A stretch of 64,000 nucleotides of DNA from Alphaproteobacteria bacterium (GTDB taxonomy: Bacteria > Pseudomonadota > Alphaproteobacteria > UBA8366): contig JANQKC010000035.1 of assembly GCA_028281325.1 (NCBI GenBank), positions 124,001-188,000 of the forward strand, given 5' to 3'. Positions 6,210 through 59,302 of this stretch are shown here, in pieces. The notes under the pieces are model-generated. The model did not search any database and was not told the origin of the DNA. It saw only the letters and a list, made by a program, of their open reading frames with translations. Position numbers and translations under genes: made by a program. Position 1 is the stretch's first letter, and every line of letters starts with the position of its first letter.

Positions 6210-7556
6210 CTATGGCGCCAAGCCGGCGACATCGGTACTTTCGTCGAGTGACTTGAGGCGGGACAGTAGTGTTTCCATCGCTCCCTCGCCGAGCCCGCGC
6301 GCCGCGGCCCTGAACTTCCCGTCGAACTCGTCTTCGCTCATCGGCTGAGTCGGCGACCCGCGGAAGTCGTTCAGGACCACTGCCCCCTCGCGGCCGTCTT
6401 TCAACGCCACCCGCGCATGGCACGCCCAGGCCTGTCCGCGTTTCGTCGTCTCGCCGAAATGGTCCAGTTTAATTTTGCGGCTTAGCGCCAGGACCGACGG
6501 GTCCGACAGGTCGGCCTTCAGGAACGACATCGGGTCCATCGGATCATGGAAAAACGACAGGGCCACCGAGAAGGGCACGCTGTACTGCGCCGCCATGAGA
6601 TCCCGCGGCGCCGGGATATCGTGGTTCGCGAGCACCTTGCGGCTCGTCCCGATGGAAATCGCATCCACATCGGCGGCGGTGAAGTCCATCTCGGCGCGCA
6701 GCGCCTCGAAAGCCTGGACCGGGGCGTGCGCCGTGGCATGACAGGCGCAGCGCTTGAAACAGATGGTTCGCGTTTCCCAAATGTCGCCCAACCCGTCCGT
6801 CAGCTTCTCCGTCAGCGGCTCGTGCGCATAGGCGTTCAAGAACCCGAACTCTCCTTCGAGGACCGATGCCGGCCCTTCATATCCGTCCTTCGACAGCGAG
6901 GCGGCCAACACGCCGCCCTCCGCCGCCCGGCCGATATGCAACCGCTTGACCATGCCGCCGCCGCCGCTTTTGGCGAATTCGAGAAGCCCCGAACAGAGCG
7001 AGCCGGCGACGCCCATCGCATTGCACATCTGCGCTGCATTCAGCTTCAACAGCGATCCCGCGGCCACTGTCGCCCCGAAGACTCCGGTCAATCCCGGCGC
7101 ATGAAATCCTTTTTCCTCGCTCGAATGGCGCGTCGACAGGCCGATCCGCGTCATCACCTCCATCCCGGCAACGAAGGCCGTGATCAGATCGCCGCCCGAT
7201 GCGCCTTCCTGCTGCGCCACGGCCAACGCGGCCGGAACGATGCCCCCCGGATGAACGCCGGTGCCCGGTTTGCGCAGACTGTCCATTTCGAAGGCGTGGG
7301 TCAGCACGCCATTGGCCAGCGCGGCGAAGGGCGCGCTGATCTTGACGCCCGGCACGCCGAGCAACGCACTGTCCCCCGCCGCCGCATTGCGCCGCGCGTA
7401 ATCGATGGCGGCCTTGCCCCAGGGCAGGTTCGCGCCGAAGACCGAAATCCCCACCGTATCCTGGATGCACGCACGCGCCCGGTCCCGAACGTCATTGGGC
7501 AAATCTTCGAATCGGAGGCCGGCGGCATAGGTCGCGAGATCCCGTGTCTGTGTCAT
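6210..7556 (-). CDS. MmgE/PrpD family protein
   Basis: This 448-residue protein has the MmgE/PrpD fold signature: an N-terminal helical start (RDLATYAAGLRFEDLP), DTVGISVFGANL, the ANGVLTHAFEMDSL segment, the LSTRHSSEEKGFHAPGLTG stretch and the glycine-rich FAKSGGGGMVKRLHIGRAAE. Known members include 2-methylcitrate dehydratase PrpD, cis-aconitate decarboxylase and immunoglobulin-like decarboxylase relatives. The substrate here cannot be read. The gene stands alone with no prp genes nearby, and a second, quite different family member is at 34656-36026. Confidence 0.9.
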   Translation of the reverse strand: MTQTRDLATYAAGLRFEDLPNDVRDRARACIQDTVGISVFGANLPWGKAAIDYARRNAAAGDSALLGVPGVKISAPFAALANGVLTHAFEMDSLRKPGTGVHPGGIVPAALAVAQQEGASGGDLITAFVAGMEVMTRIGLSTRHSSEEKGFHAPGLTGVFGATVAAGSLLKLNAAQMCNAMGVAGSLCSGLLEFAKSGGGGMVKRLHIGRAAEGGVLAASLSKDGYEGPASVLEGEFGFLNAYAHEPLTEKLTDGLGDIWETRTICFKRCACHATAHAPVQAFEALRAEMDFTAADVDAISIGTSRKVLANHDIPAPRDLMAAQYSVPFSVALSFFHDPMDPMSFLKADLSDPSVLALSRKIKLDHFGETTKRGQAWACHARVALKDGREGAVVLNDFRGSPTQPMSEDEFDGKFRAAARGLGEGAMETLLSRLKSLDESTDVAGLAP

Positions 7557-34655: not shown

Positions 34656-36026
34656 CTACCCGCGGCAAAGCGCTGCAATCTCGGTCAGCGATGCCTGGTC
34701 TTCCAGCTTGCCGACGGCCTCGATAACCGCGTCAGCCTTGTCCGCGCCGATCTTTTCCTCGGCCATGTCGCGGAACTTGGAGGAAAGCCGGAACCATTGG
34801 CGTTCCTGGTCGTCTTCCGGGATACTGGCATCGCCAAGCTGCCGCAGAACCAAACCGTCCTGCGTCGACACGATCACCTCCGAATTCGCGTGCTCGAATT
34901 TCGCTTCCGGCACCACGGTCGTCTTGTCGCGCAGATTGACGATGGTGTCGTCTCGGCAAAGCGCTTCGTTGTAGTTGGCGATCTTGCCCGTGTTTTCGCC
35001 GGCCAGCGCCATGGCGGCCGTGACGCGCAGACTGAACTTCGCCTCCAACCCGGTAGTGGGTTCCAAGATGTTGCACATCTTCGTGTAGCTTTCCGGTACG
35101 CGCAGTTCGATCTTCTCGATTCGCTCCGGCGTCAGGTTATGCTCCGCGCGGATTTGCGACGCCGCCTCGATCGCCGCATGCGTGCCGTAACAAGCGGCGT
35201 GATACTTGAACAGGATGCCGCGCGCATGGAAGCGTTCGCCGAGCCCGTCGAGGGCAAGGTCGGGCTGGAACTCCTCGGTCTGCGTATCGCCGAATCCCTG
35301 CACGCATTCGAGAATTTCGGGATTGCTCGTGAAGCCCTTCGCGCCGAGCAGCGCCGCGTACAACCCGTTGGCCGCCGCCTTGCCGGCGTGCAGCGGCTTA
35401 CACATGGTGCCGAAATTGCTTTTCAAACCCGCCGCCTGCGTTCCGGCGATGCCGTAGACGGTGACGCAGGTATCGGTGTCCAGCCTCAGCATATGTGCCG
35501 CGCCGGCCGCCGCCCCGAAGGTGCCGACTGTACCCGTCGTATGCCACCCTTTCTGGTAATGGGATTCGCCCATCAGCGCGCCGATCCGGCACTCCGCCTC
35601 GACGCCCGCGATGAAGGCGGTGATGAACGCCTTGCCGTCGGTCCCGTCGCGTTCGGCAAGCGCCAGAATCGCCGGCACGACCGGCACCGTCGGATGGCCC
35701 GGCATCGTCAGGTTGACATCGTCATAGTCGAGCGCATGCGAGGCGGACCCGTTCAGCAAAGCTGCCTGGGTCAGCGAGGACTTGAAGCCACCGCCGATGA
35801 TGGTTGCCTGCTCCCGCGCGCCCTCGTCCTTGGCCTGTTCCTGCAGCATGACGCTCAACGGCTCGGTGACCCCGGCCAGCGTGACGCCAAGCCAGTCGAT
35901 CAGGCAGCATTTCGCGATGGAGACGACATCCTTCGGCAGCGCGTCGAAGGTCAGGGATGCGCTGTTTTCTGCGATTTTCCGGGTAAGACCGGACGCGTCG
36001 GGCCGATCGAAAGCAGGTTGGGCCAT
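34656..36026 (-). CDS. MmgE/PrpD family protein
   Basis: This 456-residue protein starts at 36026 (MAQPAFDRPD), which follows an AAGGAG site at 7 nt. The open frame continues 7 codons upstream without support. Family features are CLIDWLGVTLAGVTEPL, the LNGSASHALDYDDVN segment, the HPTVPVVPAILALAE stretch and the KSNFGTMCKPLHAGKAA glycine/lysine loop. It resembles 2-methylcitrate dehydratase/aconitate decarboxylase relatives. It lies between an aldehyde dehydrogenase and an amidase on one strand, suggesting a short catabolic route whose substrate is unknown. Confidence 0.92.
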   Translation of the reverse strand: MAQPAFDRPDASGLTRKIAENSASLTFDALPKDVVSIAKCCLIDWLGVTLAGVTEPLSVMLQEQAKDEGAREQATIIGGGFKSSLTQAALLNGSASHALDYDDVNLTMPGHPTVPVVPAILALAERDGTDGKAFITAFIAGVEAECRIGALMGESHYQKGWHTTGTVGTFGAAAGAAHMLRLDTDTCVTVYGIAGTQAAGLKSNFGTMCKPLHAGKAAANGLYAALLGAKGFTSNPEILECVQGFGDTQTEEFQPDLALDGLGERFHARGILFKYHAACYGTHAAIEAASQIRAEHNLTPERIEKIELRVPESYTKMCNILEPTTGLEAKFSLRVTAAMALAGENTGKIANYNEALCRDDTIVNLRDKTTVVPEAKFEHANSEVIVSTQDGLVLRQLGDASIPEDDQERQWFRLSSKFRDMAEEKIGADKADAVIEAVGKLEDQASLTEIAALCRG

Positions 36027-36060
36027 GAGGGGACTCCTTGCTTGCAAATTTCGCTTTATT

Positions 36061-46361: not shown

Positions 46362-47354
46362 ATGACACGCTATCGGGTAATCCTAACTGTCGCCATTCTT
46401 GTCCTTGGCGCTGCGGGCGGCGGCTATTATTGGTGGCACCAGCAACAGAACCAATTGCCGGCGGACATCGCATCCGGCAATGGCCGGATCGAAGCGGAGG
46501 AAGTGCACGTAGCCGCCAAGTATGCGGGCCGCGTGGCGGAAGTCACCGTCGAGGAAGGCGACACGGTCGCCGCCGGTCAGGTTCTAGCCCGTATGGATAC
46601 GGCTGAGTTGGACGCAAGCCTCGCCCGCGCGAAGGCCTTGGTTGCGCAAGCCCAACAGGACGTTGCCGAGGCGCGCGCCCAGATCGCCAAACAGGAAAGC
46701 GAGCTGAAATTCGCCGACCAGGAACTGGGACGTGCGAAATTCCTCGTCCAGAAGGGGCATGTTTCCCGCGAGCGCCTGGACCGGCGGCAATCAGAGTACG
46801 ATACCGCCAAGGCCGTCCATACGGCCGCTATCGCCCGTTTGGTCAGCACGCAGCGCGCCGTCGAATCGGCCGAGGCGGAAGCCAAGCGGATCCAAACGCA
46901 GATTGACGACTCGGTGCTTAAGGCCCCTCGCGCAGGACGCATCCAGTACCGGCTTGCCGAGCCGGGTGAGGTCTTGCCCGGCGGCGGCAAGGTCGTGACG
47001 TTACTCGACCTGACGGACGTGTACATGACGATCTTCCTGCCGACGGCCCAGGTCGGTCGAGTCCTCGTCGGTTCCGACGCCCGTATCATTCTGGATGCGA
47101 TTTCGCAATATGTGATACCGGCGCAAGTCTCTTTCGTGGCTGCGGAAGCCCAGTTCACGCCGCGCGCGGTGGAAACGCGCAGCGAACGGGAGAAGCTGAT
47201 GTTCCGAATCAAGGTCAAGATCGACCCGGCGCTTCTGCGGCAGCATATGCAAAAGGTAAAGACCGGCGTCCCCGGCGAGGCCTACGTCCTGCTCGGCCCC
47301 GATGCGACCTGGCCGGATAGCCTACAGGTGAAACTGCCGCCGCCGGGGCAATGA
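46362..47354 (+). CDS. HlyD-family membrane fusion protein (YhiI/YbhG-like)
   Basis: This 330-residue periplasmic adaptor is anchored by one N-terminal helix ([20 protein letters not shown]). A biotinyl-lipoyl-like half ([19 protein letters not shown]) and its counterpart ([20 protein letters not shown]) flank a long coiled-coil hairpin (about residues 90-180). It bridges an inner-membrane ABC pump to the outside. Its stop overlaps the next start as ATGA, coupling it to the RbbA-like protein. Confidence 0.94.
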
Positions 47355-50083
47355 CCAAGGACGAACAGACCGCCGCGAGTCTCCAGGCCGTTTCGCATCG
47401 GTATGGCGAAACGGTGGCCCTCGACGACGTCACGCTCGCTCTCCCCGCCGGCGGCATGGTCGGCGTGATCGGACCCGATGGCGTCGGCAAATCGACTTTG
47501 CTCGGCCTCGTCGCCGGCGCCCGCAAAATCCAGTCCGGGACGGTCAACGTGCTGGACGGTGATATCGCCGACGACAAACATCGAAAACGTGTATGCCCGC
47601 GGATCGCCTATATGCCGCAAGGTCTCGGCAAGAACCTCTACATGGACCTCACCGTCTTCGAGAACCTGGAGTTCTTCGGCCGCCTGTTCGGGCAGGACCG
47701 CGCGGAGCGTCGACGCCGCATCTCCCAACTTCTAAAGAGCACCGGTCTCGACCCGTTCCCCAACCGGCAAGCGGGGAAACTGTCCGGCGGTATGAAACAG
47801 AAGTTGGGACTCTGCTGCGCCTTGATCCACGACCCGGATCTTTTGATCCTCGACGAACCCACGACCGGCGTCGATCCGCTCTCGCGCCGCCAGTTTTGGG
47901 ACCTCATCGATAGCATCCGGAAACAGCGGCCCGGCATGGGGGTGCTGGTTTCGACCGCCTACATGGACGAGGCCGAACGCTTCGATTATCTCGTCGCCAT
48001 GAACAGCGGCGCGGTCTTGGCGACCGGGAGCGCAGCGGACATCAAGCGCGGTGTCGGCGCGGAGACCCTCGAGGATGCCTTCGTCAAGCTGCTGCCCGAG
48101 ACCGACGGCCGAGAGCGCAAATCCTTCGAAATACCGGCGCGGCCCGTTCACGACGGCGCACCCGCGATCACCGCGCAAGGCCTGACACGACGTTTCGGCA
48201 AATTCACCGCCGTCGACAATGTCAGTTTCGAAATCGAGCGCGGCGAGATATTCGGATTCTTGGGCTCGAACGGCTGCGGCAAGACGACAACCATGAAGAT
48301 GCTGACGGGTCTGCTGCCGGCGACATCGGGCAAGGCGTGGTTGTTCGGCGAAGAGACCAAGGCGTCGGACCTCGAAACGCGCAAGCGCGTCGGGTACATG
48401 TCCCAGTCCTTCTCGCTGTATACGGAACTCACGGTCGCGCAAAATCTCGACCTTCATGCCCGGCTGTTCCACCTGCCGCGCCATCGCATTCCCGACCGGA
48501 TCGACGACCTGATCGCCCGGTTCGGCCTTGCCGACTACGTCGATGACCTCGCCGAGAAACTGCCCTTGGGCGTGCGCCAACGGCTCTCCCTCGCCGTCGC
48601 GGTCATCCACGAACCGGAAATGCTGATCCTGGACGAGCCGACGTCCGGGGTCGATCCGGTCGCCCGGGACATGTTCTGGGAACTGTTGATCGATCTGTCC
48701 CGAAACCAAGGCGTGACGATCTTCATCTCCACGCATTTCATGAACGAGGCGGAGCGATGCGACCGGATATCCCTGATGCATGCCGGTCTCGTGCTGGCCG
48801 ACGGCACGCCTGCCGAGCTCATGCGACGGCGTAGCGTCGAGACGCTGGAAGACGCCTTCATCGCCTACCTGCAAGAAGCGGACAGTGAACCCGCACCAAC
48901 CGAATCGCTGACAGACGCGGCAGCGCAGAACGGCAAAGCGGCCCCGCCGCGCGACGGATTCAGTCTGCGGCGGCTGATGGCCTATTGCCGGCGCGAAACG
49001 ATGGAGATTTCCCGTGATCCGATCCGGCTTGCCTTCGCGGTTCTCGGAACGGCGATCCTCATGATCGTGTTCGGATACGGCATCACGTTCGATGTGGAAA
49101 ACCTCAGGTATGCGGCCTTCGACCAGGATCAAACGCCGGAGAGCCGCACCTACCTCGAAGGGTTCGCCGGGTCGCGGTATTTCCTGCGCGGCGCGCCGAT
49201 TTCGAGTCATGCCGAGATGGACCTTCGCCTCCAGAGCGGCGACATCACGCTGGCCATCGAAATTCCACCGGGGTTCGGCAAGGCGCTGCTGCAAGGCCGC
49301 AGCCCTGCGGTATCGGCCCGAATCGACGGCGCCATGCCGTTCCGCGCGGAAACCATCCGCGGCTATGTCGAAGGGCTGCATCAACGCTATTTGGACGACC
49401 TGTCGCGCGACTCCATCGGCCTGCCGCCTGTTCTGCCGCTCGCGGCGATCGAACCCCGGTTCAAGTACAACCAAGACTTCAAAAGCGTCTTCGCGATGGT
49501 CCCCTCGACGATCGCGCTGCTTCTCATGCAGATACCGGCAATCCTGATCGCCCTGGGCGTCGTACGGGAAAAGGAACTCGGGTCGATCACCAACCTCTAT
49601 GTCACCCCGGTCACGCGGCTTGAATTCCTACTCGGCAAGCAACTTCCGTATATCGCGATCGCGCTGATCAACTTCTTCATATTGGTGGCAATGGCACTCT
49701 TCCTGTTCGAGGTGCCGATCAAAGGAAGCTTTGCGGCATTGTGCCTGGGCGCCGCGCTCTTCGTATCGGCGTCCACGGGCGTCGGCCTGTTGATCTCAGC
49801 GTTCACCCGGACCCAAATCGCCGCGCTGTTCGGCACCGCCATCGCGACGATCGTCCCGTCGATCCTGTTCTCCGGCATGATGCAACCCGTTTCGTCACTC
49901 GAAGGCGGCGCGGCATTCACAGGCAAAATCATTCCCACTACATATTTCATGAATATCAGCGTCGGAACGTTCACCAAGGGTCTCGGGTTTCGCGATTTGT
50001 CGACCGAGTTCATAGCACTCCTGATCTTCCTTCCGATCCTGACAGCCTTGAGCGTCATCCTCCTGAAGAAGCAGGAGCCATAG
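47351..50083 (+). CDS. RbbA-like ABC transporter: two ATPase domains fused to a permease
   Basis: This 910-residue fusion has ATPase 1 (Walker [12 protein letters not shown], signature [11 protein letters not shown], Walker [13 protein letters not shown]), ATPase 2 ([36 protein letters not shown]) and a C-terminal ABC-2 permease with about six helices starting near residue 560. This is the plan of E. coli RbbA (YhiH), flanked by YhiI and YhhJ as here. RbbA was described as a ribosome-associated ATPase, but this arrangement also fits a drug or metabolite exporter. The start lies within the ATGA overlap. Confidence 0.93.
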
Positions 50084-50084
50084 C

Positions 50085-51212
50085 ATGGGCCGCCTGGAGA
50101 ACATCTACCGCCTAGGCGTCAAGGAATTGTTCAGCCTACGCCGGGACAACGTCATGCTCATCCTCATCGTGTGGGCATTTTCGCTATCGATCTATACGGC
50201 GGCGACCGGCCTGTCCCACGACCTTCGAAACGGGTCTATCGCGATCGTCGATCAAGACCGCTCGCAATTATCGACTAGGATTAGACAAGCTTTCCTGCCG
50301 CCCTATTTCCGCAAACCCGAGTTGATTTCCTTTGACCGGATCGATCCGGCGATGAATGCCCGCGAGTACACATTCGTCGTGGTCATCCCCGGCAACTTCG
50401 AGTCCGACATCCTCGCCGGGCGCCACCCGACCGTCCAGATCAATATCGATGCTACCGCCATGATGCAGGCCGGGATCGGGAACGGCTATATCAACGCTAT
50501 CCTACTGCAGGAAATCGACCGGTTCGTTGGTTCCGGCACGCCGAGACCGCCCCCCGCGGTCGAGCTACGATCGCGCTATGCCTTCAACCCAAACGTTGAG
50601 AGCGCTTGGTTCACCGGCATCATGCAGGTTATCCAGCAGATTACGATGCTTTCGATCATCTTGAGCGGCGCGGCCCTGATCCGGGAACGCGAGCATGGCA
50701 CGCTCGAGCATCTGTTGGTGATGCCGCTGACGCCTCTGGAAATCATGATGGCGAAGGTCTGGGCCAACGGTCTCGTGATCCTGGTGGCCACGGGGCTGTC
50801 CATGGCATTGGTCGTCGAGCTGTTGCTGCAAGTGCCTATCGCCGGATCACGGCTGCTCTTTCTGGCGGGAACGGCGAGCTACCTCTTCTTCTCGACGGCC
50901 CTGGGCATTTTCCTGGGAACGATTGCCCGGTCCATGCCACAGTTCGGCCTTCTGTTCATGCTGGTCGTCCTGCCGATGAACCTGCTGTCGGGGGCCAACA
51001 CGCCGCTTGAGAGCCAGCCGGAACTCCTCCAGACGATCATGCAGGCCGCGCCGCCGACCCATTTCGTGAGCTTCGCCCAGGCAATCCTGAACCGGGGCGC
51101 GGGTTTCGACATCGTCTGGCCGCAATTCGCCCTGGTCGTCGCGATCGGCGGCATCTTCTTCGCCTTCGCCGCCGCCCGCGTGCGGAAGAGCCTCACCGTC
51201 GCGCACGTTTAG
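50085..51212 (+). CDS. ABC-2 type permease (YhhJ/YbhR-like)
   Basis: This 375-residue inner-membrane protein starts one base after the RbbA-like stop. It has an N-terminal helix (VMLILIVWAFSLSIYTAA), a large extracytoplasmic domain (about residues 45-170) and five C-terminal helices with the ABC-2 motif region EREHGTLEHLLVMPLTPLE. It is the second membrane half of the exporter encoded with the HlyD and RbbA-like genes. Confidence 0.93.
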   Translation: MGRLENIYRLGVKELFSLRRDNVMLILIVWAFSLSIYTAATGLSHDLRNGSIAIVDQDRSQLSTRIRQAFLPPYFRKPELISFDRIDPAMNAREYTFVVVIPGNFESDILAGRHPTVQINIDATAMMQAGIGNGYINAILLQEIDRFVGSGTPRPPPAVELRSRYAFNPNVESAWFTGIMQVIQQITMLSIILSGAALIREREHGTLEHLLVMPLTPLEIMMAKVWANGLVILVATGLSMALVVELLLQVPIAGSRLLFLAGTASYLFFSTALGIFLGTIARSMPQFGLLFMLVVLPMNLLSGANTPLESQPELLQTIMQAAPPTHFVSFAQAILNRGAGFDIVWPQFALVVAIGGIFFAFAAARVRKSLTVAHV

Positions 51213-51233: not shown

Positions 51234-52130
51234 TCAAGCGGGCGTGTCGGTCGCGCCCAGCGATTCCAGCAAAGCGGCGTTGAAGGCCTCGGCTTGCTCG
51301 TACATCACCCAATGCCCGGCATCGGCGACGATCCGCGTCTCGATATCGGGATGCGACCGCCGCATCACGCCGACCCGCGCGTCGCGCCCGCCCACGGCGT
51401 AGACGTCGCCGTCCCCCCAGATGCAGGACAACCTGCAGCGCACGCCCGGCAGACTATCCTTCAGCAAGGTATTGATGCCGCTGCGGGCGATCCGGAACCG
51501 CATGCGCAACCCATTCTCCCGCTGCAGATGCACCGCCAGATCGTCGATCCGCGAGTTGTCGTGAAACATGATGACGCCGAGATTGTTGCGGTGCCGGCGG
51601 TCCAGGACCTCTCGCGGCAGGTCCGGCCGCCAACGCTGCAGCCCCGTGATCTTTTGCGACGGCACGCCCAGCCCGCCGGGTCCGACCACGACGAGGTTGT
51701 CGAGCTTGCCGCCATGCGCCAACGCGATGGCTGCGGACAAATTGGCCCCCATGGAAAACCCGGCAACATCGTAGACCTGCTCCCTGCCGAAAAGCTGGTC
51801 GAGCCCCGCGCCGACGGCATCGGCCATCGCATCGCGAGTCGGGCGGCCCGGCAACGCGTCGGAGTCGCCATGCGACGGCATGTCCGCCGCGAAAACTTGG
51901 AAATGCCGTGACAATGGCAGGACAGTCTTGATCCAATGCGTCCAGCTCCCATACCCGCCGTGAAACAGCACCAGCGGGCGGCCCTGTCCCCACACCCGCC
52001 AGACCATCTCGCCGCCGTCGAAGCGGGTGCGGCGCTGCTCGGACAATGCGTCGATCCGCGCCACGATTTCCGCCGGCGTTTCATCGGCCGCGACCGTTGG
52101 CGCGGACGGCCGGGCGATCGCGTCATCCAT
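51234..52130 (-). CDS. Alpha/beta hydrolase (tandem array, member 4 in transcription order)
   Basis: This 298-residue alpha/beta-fold hydrolase has oxyanion/HG motif LVLFHGGYGSWTHWIKT, nucleophile elbow AGFSMGAN (serine at about 129), an acid loop GDGDVYAVGGRD and the catalytic histidine in ADAGHWVMYEQAEAF. The start at 52130 (MDDAIARPSAP) overlaps the previous gene by 8 bp. All four proteins of this array share the pattern W-R-x-W/F-G-x-G-x-P then LHGG-x-G. The substrate is unknown. Confidence 0.93.
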   Translation of the reverse strand: MDDAIARPSAPTVAADETPAEIVARIDALSEQRRTRFDGGEMVWRVWGQGRPLVLFHGGYGSWTHWIKTVLPLSRHFQVFAADMPSHGDSDALPGRPTRDAMADAVGAGLDQLFGREQVYDVAGFSMGANLSAAIALAHGGKLDNLVVVGPGGLGVPSQKITGLQRWRPDLPREVLDRRHRNNLGVIMFHDNSRIDDLAVHLQRENGLRMRFRIARSGINTLLKDSLPGVRCRLSCIWGDGDVYAVGGRDARVGVMRRSHPDIETRIVADAGHWVMYEQAEAFNAALLESLGATDTPA

Positions 52131-53010
52131 GGTCGCCGCCCTGCACGCCCAGCGCTTCCAGCAAGACCGCATTGAACCTGTCGGGCTGTTCATAGATCAC
52201 CCAATGCCCCGCGTCTTCGATGATCCTGAAGTCACAATCCGGCTGGATCGAGCGGAACAGCGCGATACGGTCGTCCATGAAGTCCTTCGCATAGCAATCC
52301 AACGCCCCGAAAATGGGGACGATCCGCGCCGTGACATCCGGCAACGCCGCCGCCAGCGCATCGGTCACGGCGATCAGCCGCCCTTTGATCCGCGCATCCG
52401 GCACATTGGTGGTTTGCAGGTAGACCGCGAGTTCGTCGATCCGGTCCGGGTCGGCGAACATCACGATTTCAAGATTGTTGCGATGGACCGCGGCGAGTTC
52501 GTCCGGGTCCGTAACGCCGCGCCAGTGGCGCAGTCCGGTAATCGCCCCCCGCCGCAACCCCAAACCGTTGGAGCCGCAAATCGCAAGCGTTTCGACCCGC
52601 GGGTACTGCGCCGCCAAACAGCCGCCGATAATGCCGCCGAACGAAAACCCGGCGACGGCGAGCGGCTGGCGGCCGGGGATCAACGCCTCCAGTCCCTCTT
52701 TGATCTGCGCGGCGATCGACAAGCCGGTATAGGGTTCCGGCGGCATGGCGGAATCGCCGTGACCGGGAATGTCCGGCAGATACAAGGTGAAGTACCGGGC
52801 CAGTTCCGGAATATTCCGAATCCAATGGCTCCACCGGCCGAAGCCGCCATGCAGCAGAACCAACGGCGGGCCGTCACCGAAAATGCGCCAGACCAGATCG
52901 CCCCCGCCGCACGGGGTGGTTCGATGTTCCGCCGCCGCCACGAAACGGCGCACGCAGGCCTCGGGCGATTCTCCATTCTGTATGGGGTCGGGAGCCGCGC
53001 GGCCGCTCAT
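52123..53010 (-). CDS. Alpha/beta hydrolase (tandem array, member 3)
   Basis: This is a 295-residue paralogue with LVLLHGGFGRWSHWIRN, nucleophile elbow AGFSFGGIIGG, acid loop FGALDCYAKDF and catalytic histidine in EDAGHWVIYEQPDRF. Its stop region overlaps the start of the next gene and its start overlaps the third gene's stop by 4 bp, so translation is coupled. A conserved VHRNNLEIVMFADPDRIDEL stretch recurs in all members (for example HRRNLATIMIADPNRID in the neighbour). Confidence 0.93.
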   Translation of the reverse strand: MSGRAAPDPIQNGESPEACVRRFVAAAEHRTTPCGGGDLVWRIFGDGPPLVLLHGGFGRWSHWIRNIPELARYFTLYLPDIPGHGDSAMPPEPYTGLSIAAQIKEGLEALIPGRQPLAVAGFSFGGIIGGCLAAQYPRVETLAICGSNGLGLRRGAITGLRHWRGVTDPDELAAVHRNNLEIVMFADPDRIDELAVYLQTTNVPDARIKGRLIAVTDALAAALPDVTARIVPIFGALDCYAKDFMDDRIALFRSIQPDCDFRIIEDAGHWVIYEQPDRFNAVLLEALGVQGGDHG

Positions 53011-53900
53011 GCGGAAGCGCCCTCGGGCGCGGCGGCGCGTAACGCCTGGATCAGCACATCGTTGAACGCGTCCGCCGCCTCATACATCACCCAATGCCCG
53101 GCATTGTCGATGACGTGGAAGGGCGTCCCCGGCTGAACGGCATGGAACGCCGCCTTCCGTTCCGCCATGCTGTCGACCACATACACATCCGCCGCCCCCG
53201 AGATGCAGACGAGCCGCGCCTTGATCGCCGGCAACGCGCGGCGCAAGGCATCCGACCGGGCGATCGCGCTGCCCTTTATCCGGGCCTTCACCGTGTTGGA
53301 CATCTGAAGCTGTAGAGCCAAACCGTCGATCCGGTTTGGATCGGCGATCATGATGGTCGCGAGGTTCCGGCGATGTATGTCGCGCAGCACGTCGTCCGGC
53401 ATATCGGCGGTCCATTTCTGCAAGCCGCCGATATTCGCCCGCGGCAGATCGAGCCCGCCGGAACCGATAACGACGAATGTATGAACGCGCGGCCCCAGCA
53501 AGGCGGCGGCGCTGCCGCCCACGATACCGCCGAGCGAGAACCCAGCCATCGCGCAGGTCGTCTCGGGCGGCAGCACGAGATTGACCCCGTCCGCGATAAT
53601 CTCGCCCAGGCACTCCGACGTGTGCGGCTCAGCCGGCGTGGCGGACTCGCCGTAGCCCGGCAGGTCCGGCACGTAGAGTCGGTAATGCACCGCCAAGTCG
53701 GGAATGTTCCGGATCCAATGGGTCCAGGCGCCATGCCCCCCGTGCAGCAACACAAGCGCCGGCCCTTCGCCCCAGATACGCCAAACCATGTCGCCGTCAC
53801 CGCAGGGCGTAAGGCGCCGTTCCGCCGACGCATCCAATCGGGCCACCAGTGTATCGGGATCGGCTACGCCCCCACTATCTTTCATCGTTTCGCATCCCAT
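53007..53900 (-). CDS. Alpha/beta hydrolase (tandem array, member 2)
   Basis: This 297-residue paralogue has LVLLHGGHGAWTHWIRNIPD, elbow MAGFSLGGIVGG, acid loop SGAADVYVVDS and histidine DNAGHWVMYEAADAF. It may start at residue 6 (MKDSGG, 53885) and still overlap the neighbour. The conserved PCGDGDMVWRIWGEGP preamble is near-identical in the four proteins, a sign of repeated gene duplication. Confidence 0.93.
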   Translation of the reverse strand: MGCETMKDSGGVADPDTLVARLDASAERRLTPCGDGDMVWRIWGEGPALVLLHGGHGAWTHWIRNIPDLAVHYRLYVPDLPGYGESATPAEPHTSECLGEIIADGVNLVLPPETTCAMAGFSLGGIVGGSAAALLGPRVHTFVVIGSGGLDLPRANIGGLQKWTADMPDDVLRDIHRRNLATIMIADPNRIDGLALQLQMSNTVKARIKGSAIARSDALRRALPAIKARLVCISGAADVYVVDSMAERKAAFHAVQPGTPFHVIDNAGHWVMYEAADAFNDVLIQALRAAAPEGASA

Positions 53901-54768
53901 ATCGCTTCAGCGCATCCAGCAGCAGGTCGTTGACCGGCTCCGCGGCCTCGTACATCGCCCAGTGACCGACGCCGTCGAGAAGGTGTATCGCCACGTCCGA
54001 CTGGGCCGATCGGAACACCGCCTTCCGATCCGCAAGTCCGGGTTTAGCAAAAACATCCTCCGCCCCCCAAATGACCGTCATCGGGGCCGTCACATCCGGC
54101 AGGACTCGCGCCAGGGTATCCGTGCCGGCCACCACATGGGACCGCATCCGCGCGCGCTTGACGTTCTCGACCTGCAACCACACCGCAAAATCGTCGATCT
54201 CCGCCGGCGGTTTCGCCAGCATGATGGCGTTCAGGTTGTGCCGCTGGACCTCCCCGACTTCCGCGTCGGACATCCCGTCTTTCGCCGCCTGCAGCGGTTT
54301 GGACAACCCGGGCCAAGGCACGCCGAGCGCGGCCGCGCCGATCAAGGTAAAAGAGGCCAGGCGCGCGCCCTCGCGGCGCGCCAGATATCCCCCCATCACG
54401 CTGCCGAAGGAAAACCCGACGAGATGGTAGCGCGCGGGCGGCGGCAACAATTCGGCCAGCCCTTGGCAGACGATCTCCGCGATATGGTCGGTCGATTCGG
54501 GAAGCCGGCCGATATCGTACTCCTGCGGCGCCAAGTCGGAGTCGCCGAAGCCCGGAATGTCCGCGACATAGAGCCGGTACTTGTCCTCCAGCACCGGCAG
54601 ATTGCGGATCCAATGGGTCCACGACCCGGACCCGCCATGCAACAGGACCACCGGTTCGCCCGCGCCCCAGATGCGCCACACCATGCGGCCATCGCCGCAA
54701 GGGGTCGTTCGCTTTTCGCACCGCCCGTGAATACGGTCCGTAACGACCGACGGATCGTCGTCGTTCAC
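53875..54768 (-). CDS. Alpha/beta hydrolase (tandem array, member 1)
   Basis: This 297-residue first gene of the array has VVLLHGGSGSWTHWIRNLPV, elbow VGFSFGSVMGG, acid loop GAEDVFAKPGLAD and histidine DGVGHWAMYEAAEPV. It has no signal peptide, so it is cytoplasmic. It overlaps the next gene by 26 bp if the longer start there is used. The four genes share one promoter region at 54769 and above. Confidence 0.93.
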   Translation of the reverse strand: MNDDDPSVVTDRIHGRCEKRTTPCGDGRMVWRIWGAGEPVVLLHGGSGSWTHWIRNLPVLEDKYRLYVADIPGFGDSDLAPQEYDIGRLPESTDHIAEIVCQGLAELLPPPARYHLVGFSFGSVMGGYLARREGARLASFTLIGAAALGVPWPGLSKPLQAAKDGMSDAEVGEVQRHNLNAIMLAKPPAEIDDFAVWLQVENVKRARMRSHVVAGTDTLARVLPDVTAPMTVIWGAEDVFAKPGLADRKAVFRSAQSDVAIHLLDGVGHWAMYEAAEPVNDLLLDALKRYGMRNDER

Positions 54769-55124
54769 GCCGGGTCCCTCTCAAACTCAATCGTCCACGC
54801 GGGGACGCCACCGCTTACCATGCGCAAACCGCCGATGCTGACAAGAAAAGCGCCGTCCGGTCAAAGCCCGAACGGCCAGGGTGCGCCAAGGTTACGAGAT
54901 ATCGCTCGGGCGTTAAAGTCCCAAGCGGTTCCTGTCACGATACTGTCCTGTGAGCGTACGACACTCCAGTCCCCGGCACACAGTTCCGCCGGACAGAATT
55001 TTGTGCGACAGAGGGATACTCCTTGGCCTTCGTTTCTCCCTGCACGCCGTTTCCGTGCTGTCGTGATCAGGTTGATTGATCCTAACAGAAACAGCGGCCC
55101 AATGCACACCGCGCCATCGATTGA
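54769..55124. other. Intergenic stretch without a supported gene
   Basis: The 356 bp between the hydrolase array and otsA contain short open frames with no conserved character. The segment nearest 54770 should carry the promoter of the hydrolase operon. A terminator of the otsA transcript is expected but no clear hairpin-plus-T-run was found. Confidence 0.4.
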
Positions 55125-56528
55125 TCAGTTCGGCAGACCTTGCCGCGTGCTGTAGGGCGCCCGTGTTAGGACCTCGATAAAGGATTCGCGCCAAGCGGTG
55201 ATATCGTGTCGGCAGAGCTGATCATACATAGCCTGCCAGCGTTCCCGACGCTCCTCCAATGACATTGTCAACGCATGCTGCAGCGCTTCCGCCACCCCTT
55301 CCGTATCGAACGGGTTCACGATCAGGGCCTCGGGCAACTCGTTCGCAGCCCCGGCGAATCGCGATAGCACAAGCACACCGGGATCCTTGGGATCCTGCGC
55401 GGCGACGTACTCCTTCGCCACCAAATTCATCCCGTCGCGCAGCGGCGTCACGAAACCGACCTTGCTGGTCCGGAAGAAACCGCACAGGGTGCGGCGGTTG
55501 AACCCTTTGTTGAGATAACGCGTCGGCACCCAATCGAACTCGGCATAGCGGCCGTTCACACGCCCGGCCACGGCCTCCAATTCACGCTGGATTTGTTGAT
55601 ATTCGGGCACGTCGCTGCGCGATGGCGGGGCAATCTGGAGCATCACGATATGGCCGCGGTGCTCCGGATAGGCTTCAAGCAGATGTTCGAACGCTTCGAG
55701 CCGCTGGGTCAGCCCCTTGGAGTAATCGAGGCGGTCGACGCCGATCAGCAAGTCGCCGCCGCCGAGGCTGCTTTTCAAGCGCTGCGTCGTCCGGGAGTCG
55801 ACCGCGGAAGCGGCAAAGCGGGTCACGGTTTCCGTATCGATCCCGATTGGAAAGACACCGGTTTTCACGGTGCGGCCAAAGGCCCGCACCAAACCGTTAT
55901 CACCGATCAATCCGCCGGCTTCCTCAAGGATATAGCTGCAGAACGCCTTGCGGTCGCTCTCGGTTTGGAACCCGACGACATCATAGGTACACATCGCCCG
56001 GACAATTTGGCGATGCTGCGGCAGCGCCAACAGGACCTGCGGCGTCGGCCAGGGGATATGCAGAAAAAATCCAAGGCGCTGCTCACATCCCGTATTACGC
56101 AACTCTTCGGCCATGGGGATCAGGTGATAGTCGTGCACCCAAATCAGGTCATCCGGCTCCAACAAAGGCCGCAGCCGGCTCGCGAACAGCCGGTTGGTCC
56201 GTCGGTATCCTTCGTAGTCGCGGCGGTTGAACTCGGACAGATCCAGCCGATAGTGAAAAAGCGGCCACAACGATCGGTTCGCAAACCCGAAGTAATACTC
56301 GTCATAGTCCGTTTGATTGAGGTCCACGGTCGCGTAGGTCAGCCGGCCCGCCGATACGATCGAAGGCTTCTGCGCCGATTGCTCCGAGATATTGCCGTTC
56401 CAGCCGAACCAGATACCGCCGCGATCCCGCAACGCGGCCAGGATGCCGACGGCAAGTCCGCCCTGACTGCCGGGCCGCGGCTGTTTGACAGGGGCAACTC
56501 TATTCGAAACAACGACAAGACGGCTCAA
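55125..56528 (-). CDS. otsA: Alpha,alpha-trehalose-phosphate synthase (GT20)
   Basis: OtsA joins UDP-glucose and glucose-6-phosphate to trehalose-6-phosphate. It has SRLVVVSNRVAPV at the very start, QGGLAVGILAAL, IWVHDYHLIPMAEEL, DRLDYSKGLTQRLEAF and RDGMNLVAKEYVAAQ. I place the start at a TTG (56528) that overlaps the previous stop as TTGA, because the conserved first strand begins there and upstream residues are non-homologous. This gives 467 residues. No otsB phosphatase is in the window. It is coupled to the GH15 gene. Confidence 0.94.
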   Translation of the reverse strand: MSRLVVVSNRVAPVKQPRPGSQGGLAVGILAALRDRGGIWFGWNGNISEQSAQKPSIVSAGRLTYATVDLNQTDYDEYYFGFANRSLWPLFHYRLDLSEFNRRDYEGYRRTNRLFASRLRPLLEPDDLIWVHDYHLIPMAEELRNTGCEQRLGFFLHIPWPTPQVLLALPQHRQIVRAMCTYDVVGFQTESDRKAFCSYILEEAGGLIGDNGLVRAFGRTVKTGVFPIGIDTETVTRFAASAVDSRTTQRLKSSLGGGDLLIGVDRLDYSKGLTQRLEAFEHLLEAYPEHRGHIVMLQIAPPSRSDVPEYQQIQRELEAVAGRVNGRYAEFDWVPTRYLNKGFNRRTLCGFFRTSKVGFVTPLRDGMNLVAKEYVAAQDPKDPGVLVLSRFAGAANELPEALIVNPFDTEGVAEALQHALTMSLEERRERWQAMYDQLCRHDITAWRESFIEVLTRAPYSTRQGLPN

Positions 56529-58312
56529 AAAGCCTGCTCCCACGGCTTCGAGAGCCGCATCGCAGAGTTGACGATTCCGACCATCGAATAAGTCTGTGGG
56601 AAATTGCCCCACAATTCTCCGGTCTTGGGGTCGAGGTCCTCGGACAACAGCCCGACGGAATTACGGCAAGCTAACATATTCTCGAATAGCGCGCGGGCCT
56701 CATCGGTCCGGCCGACCATCGCAAGGGCGTCGATATACCAAAAGGTGCAGATGTTGAACGCATTTTCCGGACAACCGAAATCGTCCTCGTTACCGTACCG
56801 GAACAAATGCATGCCTTTCTTCAATCGGTTTTCGACCAACGCCAACGTGCCGTGGAACCGTTTGTCATCCGGATCGATAAACCCGATTTCCGGCATCAGA
56901 AGAAGGCTGGCGTCCACCTCGTCGCCTTCGAAGGTCCCGGTGAAGCTGTTAAGCGACGCGTTCCACGCCTTGTCGAGAATGCCGTCGCGGATCAACTGCG
57001 CCTTATCCTCCCAGTAAACCTGCCGGTCCGTCAAACCGAGGCGGTCGGATATCCGCGCCAGCCGGTCGCAAGCGGCCCAGCACATGACGCTCGAAAAGGT
57101 ATGGACGCTTTGCCGCGTGCGCAATTCCCACATGCCCGCATCCGGCTTGTCCCATAAGGCTACCGCCCGCGCGCCGAGTTTCTCCAACTGCCGGAACTGA
57201 TCGATCGTGCCCGGCCGACGCAACCGAATATCGAAGAAGCTCTGCGCACCGGCGAGGATGACGCTGCCGTAGCCATCATTCTGCACCTGCGTATAGGCGT
57301 GGTTGCCGACGCGCACCGGTCCCATGCCGCGATATCCTTCGAGCGAATCGACTTCCCACTCGTCAAGCTTATGCGCATGGGCGATCCCGAAGACGGGTTG
57401 CAGGTCATTGTCGGTATCGACGCTGGCGACGATATTGTTGATGTAACTAAGGTAGCCTTCCATCGTCCGGGTAGCGCCCAACCGGTTCAGCGCCTGCACC
57501 ACGAAATAGGAATCGCGAAGCCAGCAGAACCGGTAGTCCCAATTGCGCGCCGAATCCGCCGCTTCGGGCACCGACGTCGTCATCGCGGCGATGATCGCGC
57601 CGGTTTCCTCGAAATGGCAGAGTTTCAGCGTAATCGCCGCCCGTACGACGGCGCCCTGCCATTCGAAGGGCAACGCAAGATAGCGGCACCATTCGAGCCA
57701 ATAGTCATCGGTCTTCTCGAAGAAATCCCGTCCCGTCTGGGCAACGGGACGTTCGAGGCTCTCGTCCGGGCCGAGCACCATCGTTATCGGTCGATCGAGG
57801 TTGAAGGGAATCTCGTCGGCGACATAAACCACCGGCGCGTCGGTGGTCAGCCGCAAGGTCATTTCCGGCATGACGTAGCGAAGGTGATTCGACCCCCGGG
57901 TCATTTCGGGGCGATGACTGCCGTAGTCGTAAGCGGGCCGCAGCCGGATGCGAAGACGCGGATTGCCAGCCCGCGGGCGAATGTGTCGGATCAACATGGT
58001 CGGCCGGAAGGACCGCCCGAACTGCTTAAAGCGCGGCGAGAAGTCGGTGATCTCGACGCAAGAGCCATCCGTACTGTACAGCTTGGTTAGGAGAATCGCG
58101 GAGTTCGGCCGATAGGACTGCTCGGCGCGTTCGAAATCCACCAGTTCGATATCGAAAAAGCCATGCGCCGGCTCGCCGTGATCCTTAAGGAGCGAACAGA
58201 ACACGGGATCGCCATCGAAACGTGGGAAGCACCCCCAGACGATACGTCCCTTCTGGTCGATAAGGGCCCCGATGCTGCCGTTCCCGATCAGAGCCAAATC
58301 CAACGAGCTCAT
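56525..58312 (-). CDS. Glycoside hydrolase family 15 protein
   Basis: This 595-residue cytoplasmic enzyme (no signal peptide) starts at 58312 after GAGGAAGGC. An N-terminal beta-sandwich (MSSLDLALIGNGSIGALIDQ) is followed by an alpha/alpha barrel with the RNWDYRFCWLRD segment, GYRGMGPVRVGNHAY and the acid-residue region SVGLLSEDLDPKTGELWGNF, as in GH15 glucoamylase/trehalase proteins. Bacterial members next to otsA include real trehalases, so it may break down trehalose or a glucan. It overlaps otsA by 4 bp. Confidence 0.93.
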   Translation of the reverse strand: MSSLDLALIGNGSIGALIDQKGRIVWGCFPRFDGDPVFCSLLKDHGEPAHGFFDIELVDFERAEQSYRPNSAILLTKLYSTDGSCVEITDFSPRFKQFGRSFRPTMLIRHIRPRAGNPRLRIRLRPAYDYGSHRPEMTRGSNHLRYVMPEMTLRLTTDAPVVYVADEIPFNLDRPITMVLGPDESLERPVAQTGRDFFEKTDDYWLEWCRYLALPFEWQGAVVRAAITLKLCHFEETGAIIAAMTTSVPEAADSARNWDYRFCWLRDSYFVVQALNRLGATRTMEGYLSYINNIVASVDTDNDLQPVFGIAHAHKLDEWEVDSLEGYRGMGPVRVGNHAYTQVQNDGYGSVILAGAQSFFDIRLRRPGTIDQFRQLEKLGARAVALWDKPDAGMWELRTRQSVHTFSSVMCWAACDRLARISDRLGLTDRQVYWEDKAQLIRDGILDKAWNASLNSFTGTFEGDEVDASLLLMPEIGFIDPDDKRFHGTLALVENRLKKGMHLFRYGNEDDFGCPENAFNICTFWYIDALAMVGRTDEARALFENMLACRNSVGLLSEDLDPKTGELWGNFPQTYSMVGIVNSAMRLSKPWEQAF

Positions 58313-58405
58313 GCTTGTGCCTTCCTCATCGCGCAAAGGCGCCTTAATACGCCGTCCTCTCACGGGGAACAAAGCAAAATATGAGCCAATCATCCGCCCA
58401 TTTGG

Positions 58406-59302
58406 TTAAAACTTCCCTCCCCCAGGTAACTGTTCCGCATAGATGGCCAGGGCCTGTTTCAACGTGCGGCTGGTATCGACCGTCTGCCGCGTTTCCTGCG
58501 CGATCGGCGTCTTCACCAACAGTTCGAAAACATCGGCGGCCCCTTTATGGAAGTTCGGCGTTACGCCCGTCCCTTCCAAGGTATGCGCGATCTCATGCAT
58601 TTCGCCGATCCAACGCCCAGCATCCAACGGCATGCGCGGCACCATCCGTTCCATTTCGGCGAAGTCCTTAGGCCGGCTGAACTGGATCTCATCATGCAGA
58701 TCGTCGGTTACGCCGAGCGCCTCGGCCGCCATCAGCGCCGCCGTGTACAAGGTCCAAGTTCCCTTCGTCACCGCCGCGTAACACATCTTGATCGCCGACG
58801 CGTTCCCCAGATCGGGACCCATGTCGATGACGTCGATATGCGGACCTTCCAGCATCTCCATCACCCCCGCATGCGGCCCGCTGACATAGAATCGCGTCGG
58901 CTTTTCACGCGTCCCCGGCCCGGGTCCGATGATACCGGCGTCGACGAAGGGTGCGCCGGCGCTTTGGATGACATCAGCCACCGCGAGCGCCGTCTGCGGC
59001 GAGACCGCGTTGCAATCCGCATAGGTTGGCATCGATCCTGCCGCCGTCATCGCCGCTGCATAGGTCTTGGCCGATTCCACGGCCAGCGACGGCGGCATGA
59101 TCGACAGCACGAGACCCGCCTCGCCCATGACCGCCTCGAGCGACGGCAAATCCTCGATCGCCGCAGCCTCGGCAAGGGCCCGGGTCCGATCGCTTCGGCC
59201 CGCGAGGCACGTGATCGTCCGAAGGCCTTCCTTTTTGAGCACCTTGGCGACGTTGTGGCCCATATCGCCGGGGCTGAGAATGGCAACTGTCTGAGACGAC
59301 AT
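58406..59302 (-). CDS. NAD(P)-dependent dehydrogenase with DUF1932 C-terminal domain
   Basis: This 298-residue protein is related to 3-hydroxyisobutyrate/6-phosphogluconate dehydrogenases. The Rossmann opening is VAILSPGDMGHNVAKVL, where the usual G-x-G-x-x-G is altered (S-P-G-D-M-G). The catalytic-lysine-type region reads GNASAIKMCYAAVTKG. A DUF1932 helical domain follows (IQFSRPKDFAEMERMVPRMP). It is divergent from the SMP-30 gene with a 120-bp gap, so both may act in one sugar-acid pathway. Confidence 0.9.
   Translation of the reverse strand: MSSQTVAILSPGDMGHNVAKVLKKEGLRTITCLAGRSDRTRALAEAAAIEDLPSLEAVMGEAGLVLSIMPPSLAVESAKTYAAAMTAAGSMPTYADCNAVSPQTALAVADVIQSAGAPFVDAGIIGPGPGTREKPTRFYVSGPHAGVMEMLEGPHIDVIDMGPDLGNASAIKMCYAAVTKGTWTLYTAALMAAEALGVTDDLHDEIQFSRPKDFAEMERMVPRMPLDAGRWIGEMHEIAHTLEGTGVTPNFHKGAADVFELLVKTPIAQETRQTVDTSRTLKQALAIYAEQLPGGGKF

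Follow-up and report, generated by a model that had tools for sequence, protein, structure and literature searches.

A conserved row of four diverged alpha/beta hydrolase genes near a DUF1932 dehydrogenase gene in Alphaproteobacteria

We analysed a 64,000-nucleotide stretch of alphaproteobacterial DNA, called the window below, and found on its minus strand, reading from position 54768 to 51234, a row of four alpha/beta hydrolase genes transcribed in the order W4, W3, W2, W1. An earlier note on this DNA had placed four overlapping paralogous hydrolases at 51234-54768, and the four minus-strand open reading frames there indeed all encode alpha/beta hydrolases. The first gene, W4 (53875..54768), begins with GTG and encodes 297 aa with the triad S120, D238 and H269; it is followed by W3 (53007..53900, 297 aa), W2 (52123..53010, 295 aa) and W1 (51234..52130). 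The longest open reading frame of W1 spans 51234-52193 and adds 21 residues before an internal ATG at 52130. These residues are disordered in the predicted model, in which residues 1-4 and 6-29 have pLDDT values below 50, and because this covers most of the first 29 residues, the modelling makes the internal ATG at 52130 a more likely start than 52193. Counted from this ATG, the overlaps between the four genes are 26, 4 and 8 nt. Convergent genes for an HlyD-type protein, RbbA and an ABC2-type permease (46362..51212, plus strand) lie outside the array.

Upstream, a GH15 gene and otsA, encoding trehalose-phosphate synthase (together 55125..58393, minus strand), lie between the array and a DUF1932/NAD_binding_2 gene for a 6-phosphogluconate-dehydrogenase-like protein (58406..59302, minus strand). 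The neighbours of the array in the window are thus GH15, otsA and exporter genes, with no importer or CoA-enzyme gene adjoining it. A terminator-like hairpin (54852..54876, minus strand), located 83 nt before W4 and 3' of a structured RNA described below, separates W4 from otsA and makes co-transcription of the array with otsA appear less likely. Two such hairpins were observed in the region against 0.8 expected, and in the second genome of the genus the scan found none at the corresponding position, though the sequence there is nearly identical.

The array enzymes are members of a very common superfamily, that of the alpha/beta hydrolase fold: all four proteins score above the gathering thresholds of both Abhydrolase_6 and Abhydrolase_1 (Pfam PF12697/PF00561), the mean pLDDT of the predicted models is 95.4 for W4 and 88.8 for W1, and the 50 structural matches listed for the W4 model have Z scores of 25.7-28.0. 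Each copy keeps a complete Ser-Asp-His triad, as the earlier note had stated, and the triad is invariant in 48/48 aligned relatives. The WRxWGxG/LHGGxG pattern that the note ascribed to all four is matched exactly by W3 and W4 alone, W2 having WRIFG and W1 having FHGG.

To see how widely the arrangement occurs, we searched 43 genomes of the window's order. Strong matches (E <= 1e-60), one or more per genome, were present in 21 of them, and four adjacent copies were present in six of the 11 genomes of the family (G000, G001, G002, G004, G006 and G008) and in none of the 32 genomes outside it. The five family genomes without the array are 64-87% complete and the six with it 94-100%. In a set of 385 genomes of the class (five from the window's order, including its own genome, and 380 from outside), 28 gave a match at E <= 1e-65, the window's own counted; with the best six candidates scored per genome, the other 27 had no adjacent matches. 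A search of genome contigs that took 80 of 181 relatives gave four loci with arrays of four and 76 with one strong copy within the stretch covered. Elsewhere the window's genome carries one further relative (contig C4) and a more distant pair (C39), and G001 has a similar distant pair (C30). A duplication limited to the window's genome, the unique local expansion that the earlier note had set against its own proposal, is ruled out, since a second genome has the array in synteny and four more have a related one. Full-text literature searches for an operon of this form gave no relevant paper among the titles listed; tandem paralog clusters are already known, and it is the conserved row of four that is unusual.

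The arrays are of two types, one in both genomes of this genus (G000 and G001) and the other in G002, G004, G006 and G008. The second type has the order DUF1932 gene, four hydrolase genes, ABC exporter (length 1201-1204 aa across three loci that were read), aldehyde dehydrogenase and MmgE/PrpD, with tctC, tctB and tctA divergent; its transporter genes were identified in locus L051, and clustering assigned their counterparts in L046 and L054. GH15 and otsA separate the DUF1932 gene from the array in both genomes of this genus and in none of the four second-type arrays. The gene-neighbourhood search that had been proposed for the locus thus recovered the array in 6/11 family genomes with a DUF1932 dehydrogenase gene upstream each time (6/6), and the window's DUF1932 gene is 56-57% identical to the one directly upstream of the second-type arrays. 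A DUF1932 gene is also found no more than 1.8 kb from a lone hydrolase gene in five other loci from metagenome-assembled genomes (L058, L059, L082, L083 and L085), at 17 nt in L059 and 40 nt in L085, and the hydrolases of these five loci form one clade. The array's upstream dehydrogenase-like protein matches the DUF1932 proteins of PDB entries 1i36, 4ezb and 3qsg, whose entry names state no tested function.

The four copies have clearly diverged, as noted before: they are 36-51% identical to one another over their whole length and 32-53% region by region, and within the alignment of 48, identity between W4 and single-copy relatives is 35-47%. In a comparison with the syntenic orthologs of G001 (locus L041), dN/dS was 0.157 for W4, 0.130 for W3, 0.102 for W2 and 0.091 for W1, and these ratios indicate that all four are maintained as working proteins by purifying selection. 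Degenerating copies are ruled out by the dN/dS values and the intact triads, and a chance arrangement by the synteny of the four genes in a second genome together with the dN/dS range of 0.09-0.16.

Relatives that stand alone as one copy are found in other Alphaproteobacteria and on plasmids of Burkholderiales, and their neighbours are often TctC, CoA-enzyme or MmgE/PrpD genes; we annotated neighbours at chosen loci among 82 and examined five plasmid relatives among 137 matching records. The plasmid hydrolases (Cupriavidus, Comamonas, Paraburkholderia, Sphingomonas) align with 84-92% of the length of W3 at 33-38% identity. They share with the array the Phe elbow, the His discussed below and the triad (5/5), and in three of the five all 17 signature residues that we examined are present; they differ from it in having a single hydrolase gene per region viewed. 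In Cupriavidus necator pENH92 the hydrolase gene adjoins genes for an acyl-CoA dehydrogenase, TctC-type proteins, an acetate-CoA ligase, a succinate-semialdehyde dehydrogenase and a dehydrogenase that is of the NAD_binding_2/NAD_binding_11 kind, whereas that at the arrays is DUF1932. In Comamonas endophytica the adjoining genes are MmgE/PrpD, acyl-CoA dehydrogenase, TctC and acetate-CoA ligase, with a DOPA 4,5-dioxygenase family gene at 1.5 kb; in Paraburkholderia caribensis they are MmgE/PrpD, enoyl-CoA hydratases and CoA transferase. The C. metallidurans pMOL30 relative adjoins TctC near metal efflux genes, and the Sphingomonas paeninsulae relative adjoins an acyl-CoA dehydrogenase gene, the surrounding region also holding Rieske and SRPBCC genes. 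Three of the five therefore adjoin TctC, two of these also acetate-CoA ligase and acyl-CoA dehydrogenase. The paralogs in the window's own genome have CoA transferase, enoyl-CoA hydratase, TauD and MmgE/PrpD neighbours, and a relative in a metagenome-assembled genome of the same order (L048) lies near genes for a D-2-hydroxyacid dehydrogenase, an RraA-like aldolase, a DHDPS-family protein and TauD.

An MmgE/PrpD neighbour, which we considered as proof of a pathway, lost weight on counting: the family is expanded in the array genomes, each of which has 22-45 copies, or 0.09-0.25 expected per 20 kb, so that its presence nearby is weak evidence. In our judgement the links to TctC and CoA enzymes across orders weigh more, the background having been computed for MmgE/PrpD only.

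Taking gene context and sequence together, we favour the reading that the array consists of translationally coupled, old paralogs that are independently active, act on different substrates and provide a hydrolytic step in organic-acid catabolism, and we put its probability at about 0.55. It builds on the observed gene order, overlaps, intact triads, divergence, selection and conserved dehydrogenase gene. Each of the four would be an independently active serine hydrolase with the usual Ser-Asp-His mechanism, and all four would have been retained since each handles a different small carboxylate ester, lactone or C-C substrate of a related set. Expressed jointly, they would perform the hydrolysis within a module for organic-acid catabolism, which would also employ the DUF1932 dehydrogenase and, in relatives, the TctCBA importer, the aldehyde dehydrogenase and MmgE/PrpD. 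Activity, substrate class, differing specificities and common expression are the parts that we infer.

An alternative that we regard as unlikely is that W1-W4 are meta-cleavage product hydrolases, cleaving a C-C bond in an aromatic ring-cleavage pathway. The array proteins share with the C-C hydrolases HsaD, BphD, MhpC and CarC the fold, the triad, the size and the Trp after the catalytic His; in BphD W266 follows H265, and the matching Trp is present in 48/48 aligned relatives. HsaD, BphD and MhpC are also the best-scoring solved relatives by profile, and the best VIA-align match of the W4 model is CarC (Z 28.0, rmsd 2.4, 245 residues aligned). However, haloperoxidases and esterases come within 1 Z unit of CarC. 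Foldseek ranked a bacterial phospholipase A first, followed by 6gxf_B, which we take to be a fluoroacetate-dehalogenase entry, and then BphD, and the top match in a single-sequence search with W3 was a soluble epoxide hydrolase. The DOPA 4,5-dioxygenase family gene near the Comamonas endophytica relative and the Rieske/SRPBCC region in Sphingomonas paeninsulae would suit a ring-cleavage role, but no extradiol dioxygenase was found among the annotated neighbours of the arrays.

The active-site residues further separate the two groups. The array elbow reads GFSxG, as opposed to GNSxGG in the C-C hydrolases, and the Asn before the nucleophilic Ser (N111 in BphD), which we assume to be family-defining for C-C hydrolases, is replaced by Phe in 48/48 relatives and in 5/5 plasmid relatives. 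N111 appears in a ligand-contact list for BphD in PMC7034887. In the SWT(N/H) stretch the Asn of HsaD (SWTN) is replaced by His in the array, again in 48/48 and 5/5. For the cap Arg of C-C hydrolases, R190 in BphD, the profile alignment sets the QRFA of HsaD beside a gap, and Arg is present at the adjacent column in 2/48. All four proteins miss the NCBIfam curated cut-offs, the best of them scoring 50.3 against 400 bits for HsaD and 47.3 against 462.15 bits for BphD. Because these cut-offs are missed and the active-site Asn is Phe in 48/48, the array proteins fall outside the C-C hydrolases on the features tested, although they may act like that group.

We give still less credence to a lineage-specific amplification that would serve dosage, the four copies sharing one function. 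Against it, the copies resemble one another about as much as W4 resembles single-copy relatives, a second array type exists, and the best tree holds the four genes of this genus apart; in its favour, a single clade of these four genes remains acceptable under an AU test (p 0.121). We built a quick tree of 99 rows and a second tree of 54 chosen rows, which leaves out, among others, the long-branch L090, L100, L103, L113, L116, L118 and both L122 sequences. In the 54-row tree, genes three and four of the second array type are mutual sisters (support 100/100), and W1, W2 and W3 form a weak group with its second gene (87/76). W4 tends to pair with the first gene of that type, with support 70/94.6 in the analysis that included the AU tests. 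The quick tree places W4 and the second type's first gene in a set with SH-aLRT 98 that includes L118, and puts W1 apart from W2 and W3. Orthology of W4 to this first gene is thus favoured, though not firmly. AU tests gave p 0.305 for a single clade of all array genes and p 0.424 for a clade of W1-W3 with their orthologs, so the trees are compatible both with one array origin followed by later change and with separate expansions. The duplications, which the earlier note proposed to date by phylogeny, are old, the copies being about as distant from one another as from single-copy relatives, and the trees neither reject nor demonstrate a single origin.

A hetero-oligomer such as a heterotetramer working as a single enzyme, for which the overlaps and the co-occurrence of the four genes in six genomes would fit a fixed stoichiometry, is very improbable, since the array types lack a one-to-one gene match, the sister pairing of the second type's third and fourth genes is unexpected for a fixed four-subunit complex, and the full triad in every copy speaks mildly against a split into catalytic and non-catalytic subunits.

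Among these explanations, coupled paralogs with different substrates remain our preference, and we read the array as four serine hydrolases that probably do not duplicate one another's role and that would act on small carboxylate esters, lactones or C-C substrates. The sub-functions on related esters suggested in the earlier note are the likeliest reading because the duplicates are old and all conserved; that the functions differ is deduced from their divergence. In favour of this reading, the W4 cap is 32-34% identical to those of W2 and W3, compared with 44-47% for its two core parts. Against it, this contrast nearly disappears between W4 and W1 (cap 34%, core 37-38%), and region-by-region identity shows none among W1-W3. 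The array is probably an ordinary means of broadening the range of small acids and esters degraded. It offers a clean, small example of tandem duplicates that have diversified and been retained by bacteria beside one conserved dehydrogenase gene, and it defines a hydrolase subfamily and genomic module whose natural variants are suited to assays.

Upstream of W4 we also observed a structured RNA core of about 108 nt (54955..55062, minus strand). The structure is supported by covariation, and eight copies were found; the search of the class covered 385 genomes, with the best 10 candidates scored in each, and a comparison with Rfam gave no match. The two genomes of the genus share a 73-base identical run in this RNA, and the synonymous sites of the neighbouring coding genes differ between them at 41-56%. 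We think it very doubtful that the core and the hairpin form a new regulatory leader or riboswitch switching the four hydrolases on or off, a reading disfavoured by the other copies, which lie beside genes for an amino-acid-type ABC importer, response regulators, a trehalose phosphatase and MFS/enolase-superfamily proteins. The structured RNA may hold wider interest than the hydrolases beside it.

We located eight copies of the structured RNA, spread over five genomes and three families. The window copy lies at 54955-55062 (-), upstream of the hydrolase array, and the syntenic array locus of the second genome of the genus (L041) carries another at 7131-7238; the remaining copies were found at further loci, namely L148 (8769-8877), L149 (8162-8270), L150 (743-851, -), L151 (3481-3588, -), L161 (7554-7661) and L162 (8296-8403, -). 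Two copies in one genome (G225) were recovered at 85.6 and 79.1 bits with a model built without them, and a 27-bit match in G283 was left out of the count.

Across the 23 pairs counted in the alignment 92.9% of cells are paired, and eight of these pairs show changes on both sides. The covariation score was reached by none of 500 shuffles, with the structure derived from the same alignment; individual copies folded no better than shuffles. Searches against Rfam 15 returned chance-level hits only and no family match. The hairpin scan placed a terminator-like hairpin 3' of the RNA, on its own strand, in three of the eight copies (L148, L149 and the window, at 54852-54876, -). The neighbouring genes differ between copies and include otsA with the hydrolase array, an ABC importer, a trehalose phosphatase, response regulators and MFS genes. 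The element is probably a small RNA gene, perhaps with a link to stress.

In the window, GH15 (trehalase-like) and otsA genes (55125-58393) separate the DUF1932 gene from the array hydrolases. Both genomes of the genus have this arrangement, which the second array type lacks; it looks like the result of an insertion or a rearrangement. Convergent with the array are HlyD-like, RbbA and ABC2-type permease genes (46362-51212, +), the RbbA assignment scoring 1505 bits against a cut-off of 1050.

A second tandem pair, of hydrolases similar in kind to those of the array but more distantly related (G000:C39:145887-147472, L122), adjoins enoyl-CoA hydratase, CoA transferase and MmgE/PrpD genes, and a similar pair is present in G001:C30. 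The MmgE/PrpD family is strongly expanded among the 13 genomes counted, with 22 copies in the window's genome, including the two in the window at 6210-7556 (-) and 34656-36047 (-), and 45 in a 3.7-Mb relative.
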